From contig NW_024881564.1 in the NCBI RefSeq assembly GCF_019059575.1, positions 620,001 through 684,000 on the forward strand: a stretch of DNA of 64,000 nucleotides, given 5' to 3'. The stretch comes from Amphibalanus amphitrite (taxonomy: Eukaryota; Arthropoda; Thecostraca; Balanomorpha; Balanidae). The notes beneath the pieces are model-generated. The model was not told the DNA's origin. It saw nothing but the letters and a program-made list of their open reading frames with translations, and made no database searches. Position numbers and translations under genes: made by a program. This document shows positions 38,474 through 41,400 of the stretch, one piece after another. Position 1 is the first letter of the stretch. Each line of letters starts with the position of its first letter.

Positions 38474-41400
38474 CTGCCGGGGGACAGGGGGCGAGGTCAC
38501 TAAAAGGGCTGGCAGGCGAGAAGGTCATGAGCGATTCATATGTGAAGGTGTCTGGCTTTGTAGGCGCTGACGAAACACACACGGTATTGATCGATGCAAA
38601 TGAGTATGCCTTTATTAAAGGGGCTTCAGTATCATATGCTAGCAAAAGTGACTTTTTTTTAGTTCGCATTAGCTGGATATTTGTGCTTGCGAGTTGTTGC
38701 AGTTTCACATATCCAATCTTACACCCAAGGTATCAGGACTATTTATAAAGCTTATTGTCTATCTAGCACTTAGTAGTCATTAGTAAGAGCGTCGGTAATC
38801 TAGATGCCTCGCTGTTTTGGAGAAATGAAGTTCATGATTGTTTTTAACATGAAGTACTGAGCACCTGTTTAATCTCTAATGCGTTCCCAGAATACTATAG
38901 CCGTAGAAGATATTTAACGCTTTATATGTGTCATCGAAGTCGCATCATATTTATTGCACTGTTGAGCATTGACCACGTTTGCTCGACTCGTTGTGACACT
39001 ATCAAAGGTTCCGTGATGTTTTCTCTCATTTGGCTTAGTTTAATCATAATCCTACCCTCTACTCGGTTTTGCGATCTGAAGATTTGTTAGCCGCTTAGCG
39101 TACACAAATCACAACGTGTCAGGCGTGCGTACTGCGTCAGGAAAGCTACAACTTCTTTCTTGGTCTGATGATCGTCAGCCACCTTATGAGGCCCATTGAC
39201 TACTTATGCTAACAATACATCCCGCATTTCTCCTCGTCAAGCTTTGGGACTTTCCCCATAGACCCTACATCATTCACTCGTCTCCGACCTAGTCCTTGGT
39301 AGTTCATTGTCTCCCACCTCACTCACTCACTCACTCACTCACTCACTCACTCACTCATTCACTCACTCACTCACTCACTCACTCACTCAATCAATCAATC
39401 ACTTACCCCCTCACTCACTCACCCACCCACCCACTCACTCACTCACTCACTCACTCACTCACTCACTCACTCACTCACTCACTCACTCACTCACTCACTC
39501 ACCCACCCACCCTCCCTCCCTCCCTCACTCACTCACTCACTCACTCTTTCACTCACTCACTACCTCACTCACTCACTCACTCACTCACTCACTCACCCGG
39601 TCTCGTTTCCAAGGCATCACCAGTGTGGGCACCAGCTGTCCGCCCTGGTTCCTCCTGGCCATCACCAGGTATTTCCCGGCGCGCTCCTTCACGGCCGGAC
39701 AGCAGGACGAGTCGTGACTCCACGCGAGTCGAGGTCTTCGCAGGGCGCGCCGCTGCTCCTTGGGGGCCGACTGGGGTTTGAAGAGGCGGCCCTTGCCGAG
39801 CTGTGCGCGCTGCGGCCGCAACCGGCGGAACTTGGAGACCAAAACTGCCGCAGACAGAGAAGGGGGAGGGGTATTAGGACTATAAATTTGTCTTCGAGTT
39901 CTGAACATATAGGCTTTTTAGTATGTATAAACAATCGCGACAAGAGTATAAACAAAATAAGAATGTCGATGGATTGAACGACTCTAGTGTACTGAATTTA
40001 GTTTTGCATCTATGGAAACAGTAAGTTGTAGTCAACAAACTAATGAGTGACGATAAAATTAATCTGTCCAATTAATCTGTCGACGCTTTAGAACCTAGGT
40101 TTTTCTTCGATTGCTCACCGACGTCGGCGCGGCAGAAGTGATCCATGATGCTCTCCTTGGTCTCTGGCTGCTCACACACCTCGCATTCCGCCTTCTTCGG
40201 CTCCTCAACTGTGGGAGAAAACAAAGGAGGCATGTCAACATGGCGACTTATTCTTGCATCAACTTTACGTAGGTCCGGACTCCAGTACGAAGACGGGGCT
40301 TTGGTACGTGCTTTGACGGTACACTGGGGCATTTTCATGTCTGTCGTAACATGAAAATTATCAATCTTGCTTCGGAGATCTTTGATGGTCATGCAGGTCG
40401 CTAACCCGTTTTGTTTGGCAAACTTGCCGCGGTGCAGAAGAGACCGACCCATGACGGTAGCGATGATGGCTGTTTTACTGATATTTGGACTGCAATCGGA
40501 CATTTTTCCCTGTTTTTACTGTTTCACTGAAGACTTGTTTTCCGACATGTCATCATGTCTCGTCTGGCATCGGTGCCAGAATGCGGAACGTTGGCCCTCG
40601 CGTGCTGGGCAGAGGCAACTTGAAAGCGAAACACGACGTTTTAACGAAGCTAATCCACATGCACGTCTATTCAGTGCTGAATGGCGATATTATGTGATTC
40701 GCCGTAGTTGCTCGAGAATGAAGTCGGAAAGAATATGAATGGGTCCACGTGATGAATCCGCAAGCGGTTTACGACTACATTTGACTAATGCATCCGAAGC
40801 TACGCTGACTCAGCTTCGGAGTGATAAAACTCTAGATAGCTACATTAGGTATACATATTACATACGAGCTAAAATGTGCCCCACTGGGTTTGTGATAATC
40901 TAAATCCGGAATCCAATGCCATTCAGATCAATTGGTACAAGAAGGGCTCTGGTTGACAAGATAAAAATGAAAGAAGGCGCATTTTCTACACGTTATGTTA
41001 GATGGTGTTTTGTCGGACCCTTATTCTAACGGAGCAATGTAGAATTAAATATATAGATTTAGCATATTAGTGGTGTCAATCCATGAGGCCAGTTCGCTCT
41101 ATGTCGCTTTTGGCCAAACATCATCGAGACCGCAGCCAATTACAGACGATGGACTAAGAATGTGCATGATAATAGCCAAAATGCCGTTCAGATTTATTGC
41201 TTTATCAATTAGCTTACGTCCATCAATGACTCACTGCATGCCTCTGAAGGCACATTCTGCTGCTGGCGTGCATAAACGTCGCATGGCCGAGGTGAGTTGA
41301 AAGCTGCCGCAAGAGAGATGCCAGTCATAATTTGCTCTTGCAGGGTGTAAATACCAAATTGAAATTCCTCTGCGCTGACTGTGATTGCGGGGAAATCAGG

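Follow-up and report, generated by a model that had tools for sequence, protein, structure and literature searches.

Which 5' splice site would be used, and what becomes of the protein, when an intron opens with a microsatellite whose unit itself reads as a donor? The question is raised by intron 3 of a predicted gene for a secreted Frizzled-related protein (sFRP) in Amphibalanus amphitrite, on the minus strand of the window, by which we mean the whole stretch of 64,000 nt analysed here (contig NW_024881564.1, positions 620,001 to 684,000).

Results

A predicted four-exon sFRP-like gene

The gene spans 10,616 nt with three donors, and the four-exon model that we find plausible is as follows (a slash marks the border between exon and intron).

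48303..48816, minus strand: coding part of exon 1, with the ATG at 48816, a hydrophobic start (by eye) and the Fz (CRD) domain; donor CAG/GTGAGT.
40119..40208, minus strand: exon 2, the start of the NTR-like region with CxxC and a third cysteine; donor TCG/GTGAGC; GT-AG borders and phase-consistent junctions.
39597..39844, minus strand: exon 3, the NTR-like region up to ...PWKRDR, aligned to human SFRP1/SFRP2 C-terminal regions; donor CGG/GTGAGT.
38201..38473, minus strand: coding part of exon 4 with the stop (LFRSVRGLMRRFDC...), holding the sixth cysteine of the NTR-like region and a basic tail; acceptor CCCCCGGCAG/CTG.

All borders are GT-AG and the phases match, the introns measure 8,094 (intron 1), 274 (intron 2) and 1,123 nt (intron 3), and the joined exons 1-4 encode 374 aa, ending in an exon 4 tail with 32 K/R and 3 D/E in 90 aa. 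GTGAG is common to all three predicted donors. The Fz domain in exon 1 scores well above the Pfam cut-off (E 2.7e-27, 95.9 bits against 32.1), and the best PDB match of the model is sizzled, an sFRP (E 5.7e-40); the listed PDB Frizzled chains cover only model residues about 46-170. The gene likely encodes a secreted, sFRP-like Wnt inhibitor.

The microsatellite begins at the first base of intron 3

39318..39596, minus strand: (GTGA)n microsatellite, found by TRF, with which intron 3 opens (279 nt); 46 GTGAGT, the first of which is the predicted donor.

TRF reports a single period-4 array at 39318-39596 (70.2 copies, 90% matches, score 411). Exon 3 ends at 39597 and the tract begins at 39596, which is intron base 1 (CGG/GTGAGTGAG), so that TRF and the gene model together confirm what had been proposed from the letters, namely that the repeat starts exactly at the end of exon 3. 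The same proposal gave the tract as about 275 nt of (GTGA)n; the tract is there, but its length is 279 nt in one assembly, which may be inexact, and it is interrupted, 18 of its 71 units being other than GTGA (including one cut last unit and one alignment artefact). On the minus strand the tract holds 53 GTGA, 60 GT and 46 overlapping GTGAGT, one of which is the first donor; across the whole window, GTGAGT occurs 64 times on the minus strand and 9 times on the plus strand. Read from 39596 downward, GTGAGTGAG has one GY dinucleotide at the end of exon 3 and another 4 nt on, which is the GYNNGY layout. By post hoc arithmetic, a tract would start exactly at any of the three donors, in one orientation, with odds of 3/(2 x 10,616), about 1.4e-4, but this placement needs no function, because donor and repeat unit share sequence.

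The region is generally rich in microsatellites, with long CT/GA dinucleotide tracts at 34916-35213, 42832-42953 and 44045-44116.

Most repeat copies are predicted to be weak donors

We took donor strength as the predicted pairing with the 5' end of U1, using a general U1 sequence, not one from this organism, with unmodified bases and the pseudouridines left out; below, +n denotes a site n nt downstream of the first donor. The first donor, CGG/GTGAGT, pairs at -11.2 kcal/mol, close to the -11.8 of the full consensus CAG/GTAAGT, and the exon 1 and exon 2 donors pair at -11.9 and -8.3 kcal/mol. By contrast, 42 of the 60 tract GTs are at -5.4 kcal/mol, so that a typical repeat copy has 5.8 kcal/mol less predicted pairing than the first donor. 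The context TGAGTGAGT, which puts TGA at bases -3 to -1 ahead of GTGAGT, surrounds 41 of the 60, and it is this exon side that makes most copies poor donors. The sequence-only reading had called GTGAGT a near-ideal U1 site, which is apt for the first donor and fails for most repeats; repeat copies as near-ideal donors were rejected on predicted U1 pairing energy, and the dozens of competing donors that it envisaged become the weak step of its argument.

A few sites do approach the first donor. The best rivals are TGG/GTGAGT at +94 and +174 (-10.1 kcal/mol each) and GGG/GTAAGT at +190 (-10.0 kcal/mol), all within 1.2 kcal/mol of it, and four of the five GTGGGT sites lie at -9.0 to -9.3 kcal/mol. 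By position, these rivals and the GTGGGT sites sit in or beside imperfect units and not in the perfect ladder, as in the second imperfect cluster:

39401..39434, minus strand: three GTGGGT, the +174 donor TGG/GTGAGT (39422) and the +190 donor GGG/GTAAGT (39406).

In terms of predicted pairing, then, the ladder proper is a series of weak sites and the real competitors arise from its defects. That the exon 2 donor presumably works at -8.3 kcal/mol advises caution against calling the tract rivals silent.

Downstream donors would truncate the protein

On translation of the joined exons, the +4 donor yields 415 aa with a tail read in a shifted frame and the +8 donor a product ending VSDCSGQFAA, in keeping with the frame shifts that had been predicted for these two sites. 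Since the first 12 nt already contain the whole stop, any later donor also reads Val-Ser-Glu-stop, as had been stated for donors at least 12 nt downstream; the seven that we tested (+12, 16, 36, 40, 94, 174 and 190) all end VSE. The claim that this truncation precedes the last NTR cysteine and the basic tail also holds, since the NTR-like region has five cysteines without exon 4 and six with it. The usual rule for NMD is a stop more than 50 nt before a junction, and the distance from stop to junction is 82 nt for +94, 162 nt for +174 and 178 nt for +190. We also noted that exon 4, read in the +4-shifted frame, runs for about 130 residues without a stop (38473-38082, minus strand), against the normal 90-residue tail.

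These products bear on the most probable of the alternatives, which we nonetheless regard as unlikely: that repeat donors are usefully used and that the amount of full-length sFRP relative to the NTR-truncated form depends on the length or composition of the allele. The 46 GTGAGT sites, the near-equal donors at +94, +174 and +190, their identical outcome and the loss of the sixth NTR cysteine all speak for it, as does the tendency, described in the available part of one study, of strongly regulated tandem donors to consist of two about equally strong sites and perhaps to act mainly via NMD (PMC4267661). In that same text, however, GYNNGY donors are seldom alternatively spliced (796 of 122,198, or 0.65%, in human; 1,027 of 124,066, or 0.83%, in mouse), these events are judged mostly noise, and in donors other than the strongly regulated ones the first GT is usually the one used (PMC4267661). 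Two findings weigh on the other side: tissue regulation affects about 20% of alternatively spliced GYNNGYs in human, though 3% in mouse (PMC4267661), and what is available of another study reports unusually high proportions of alternative splicing for tandem sites 3-6 nt apart, which could well be beneficial (PMC2423196). On balance we expect the first donor to dominate. Against the alternative stand also the deficit in predicted pairing of the typical copy and the fact that unit number leaves the first donor unchanged: its nine bases stay the same through gain or loss of units while two units remain. Because the first donor is rebuilt whatever the unit number, length polymorphism alone is a poor tuner, and the earlier proposal that repeat length tunes isoform output is weakened. 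A functional claim for most of the ladder is unlikely, and for a truncated isoform the donors at +94, +174 and +190, which the sequence-only reading did not name, are on predicted pairing the better candidates.

A variant built on these three sites seems to us quite improbable. Here imperfections, and not length, would make a second tier of strong donors around a G-quadruplex, and slippage-driven turnover of variant units would shift output between a Wnt inhibitor with its whole NTR and one that has lost the last cysteine together with the basic tail (or NMD).

Support for the exon 3-4 junction

If exon 3 did not end at 39597, or exon 4 did not start at 38473, the tract would lie off the splice boundary, for example with the gene ending at KRDR-VSE-stop. 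Such an error in the gene model, which we rank as less probable again, draws on the NTR-like part, for which Pfam gives no NTR match above cut-off (only TIMP, below its own cut-off, with E 0.063 and 0.041) and for which a PDB sequence search with the NTR part alone gives no match up to E 10; this part of the predicted protein is poorly conserved. In raw similarity to SFRP tails, moreover, the exon 4 acceptor ranks 5 of 795 candidates within 10 kb, so similarity alone cannot settle exon 4. On the other side, a cysteine 13-16 residues past the junction is found for 28 of 790 downstream AGs, and with a pyrimidine-rich tract (pyrimidines making up 0.7 or more of the preceding 20 nt) for 1 of 790, the exon 4 acceptor itself, although both thresholds were chosen post hoc with the candidate already seen. 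The exon 2-4 region scores 93 against SFRP2 and 84 against SFRP1 (human C-terminal regions), where the maxima of 500 shuffles each are 43 and 39; this alignment speaks more for the whole region than for the junction of exons 3 and 4. The NTR domain is mainly defined by six cysteines that form three disulfides, according to the available part of one paper (PMC2542364), and here six are reached only when exon 4 is joined. We consider the exon 4 assignment fairly well supported.

G-runs and polyadenylation hexamers in intron 3

39502..39524, minus strand: predicted RNA G-quadruplex GGGAGGGAGGGAGGGTGGGTGGG, with six GGG runs and short loops, at intron bases 73-95.

The tract has ten GGG runs in total, and the predicted quadruplex overlaps the +94 donor TGG/GTGAGT by one base, its last G being also the donor's first base. 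Downstream of the tract, intron 3 contains two AATAAA and two ATTAAA hexamers (38616, 38873, 38955 and 39044, minus strand), and intronic polyadenylation could yield the same truncated protein. The roles of hnRNP H/F and the block that U1 imposes on polyadenylation are general background, and the quadruplex and hexamers may leave room for recruitment of splicing factors or for such a block. The least probable reading is that U1 and hnRNP H/F-like proteins are drawn to the ladder and its G-runs and so strengthen the first donor or suppress intron 3 polyadenylation. It builds on these motifs and on the commonness of potential quadruplex sequences near mammalian donors (as stated in the available part of PMC5778605), but hexamers of this kind turn up by chance and the G-runs have the look of slippage.

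The rest of the window

No Rfam family matches the window at gathering scores, so no snRNA was found, and Pfam finds nothing in five other long ORFs (of 25 listed with at least 170 aa). Positions 1-18400 hold five arrays of the (ACCCCT)n type and a 19/30/49-bp repeat, ACTTGC..AAGTACTTGGT, that comes in recurring blocks, together with near-identical 194-aa ORFs at 4708, 6012, 10341 and 11645, of which the one tested (4708) has no Pfam match; these repeats and ORFs look like a local amplification. At 60872-62014 there are arrays of an 11-bp unit, e.g. CCGACGTCGGC, and a 73-bp tandem repeat with a similar motif.

Discussion

The reading that we prefer, with a probability of about 0.72, is that the microsatellite was seeded by its own donor, that the first donor is dominant and that truncated or NMD-targeted message is a minor output. 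Identical variant units lie next to each other in 7 pairs where 0.45 are expected (0 of 10,000 shuffles reach 7), and this clustering fits slippage with copying of mutated units. The unit matches the donor, intron base 1 is also the first base of the array, and the three donors share GTGAG, so the donor is likely the seed. The intron 3 donor GTGAGTGAG would then have given rise to the four-base repeat, which replication slippage would have expanded into the intron while the coding sequence pinned its exon-side edge. Splicing would mainly use CGG/GTGAGT, and occasional use of the donors at +94, +174 and +190 would produce a Val-Ser-Glu-stop message with its last junction more than 50 nt past the stop, which would probably go to NMD or else give a little NTR-truncated sFRP. 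On the evidence of the letters, the repeat is probably a largely harmless growth out of a splice site; against this reading, the many weak sites of the tract could add up.

Should the repeat donors be used, the locus would let one ask, in a natural setting, how the spliceosome picks a site when dozens of U1 sites follow at even spacing, and the output of a Wnt antagonist would be set by microsatellite turnover. If they are not, it illustrates how a donor can seed a microsatellite and survive, slippage rebuilding the same donor each time.

Comparison with known systems

The predicted protein resembles the secreted Frizzled-related proteins of the SFRP1/2/5 type in its Fz domain and, as modelled, in a putative NTR-like region with six cysteines, and differs from them in that an intron separates the last cysteine and the tail from the rest. 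Human SFRP1 and SFRP2 are not known to have an intron at a position that would split off these parts. With intronic tetranucleotide microsatellites the tract shares its head-to-tail array and the interruptions copied into neighbouring units, but here the array opens at intron base 1, and the donor predicted to work lies inside it. Bcl-X pre-mRNA, as described in the available part of PMC5778605, has G-quadruplexes near two alternative donors; the likeness is a quadruplex, here a predicted one, beside donor-like sites.

Among open-access titles and abstract openings, we found no description of a donor inside a (GTGA)n tract, the literal GTGAGTGAGTGA included, which is no proof of absence, and the available text of PMC4267661 has 0 mentions of microsatellites. 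The closest parallel is given by GYNNGY tandem 5' splice sites, as far as the available parts of PMC4267661 and PMC2423196 describe them: there too, GTs stand 4 nt apart at the exon end, and use of the second site shifts the frame, in many cases onto a stop, with NMD as a possible result. In the sFRP-like gene, however, this spacing is iterated over 279 nt to give dozens of sites instead of two, and every site from +12 on meets the same early stop.
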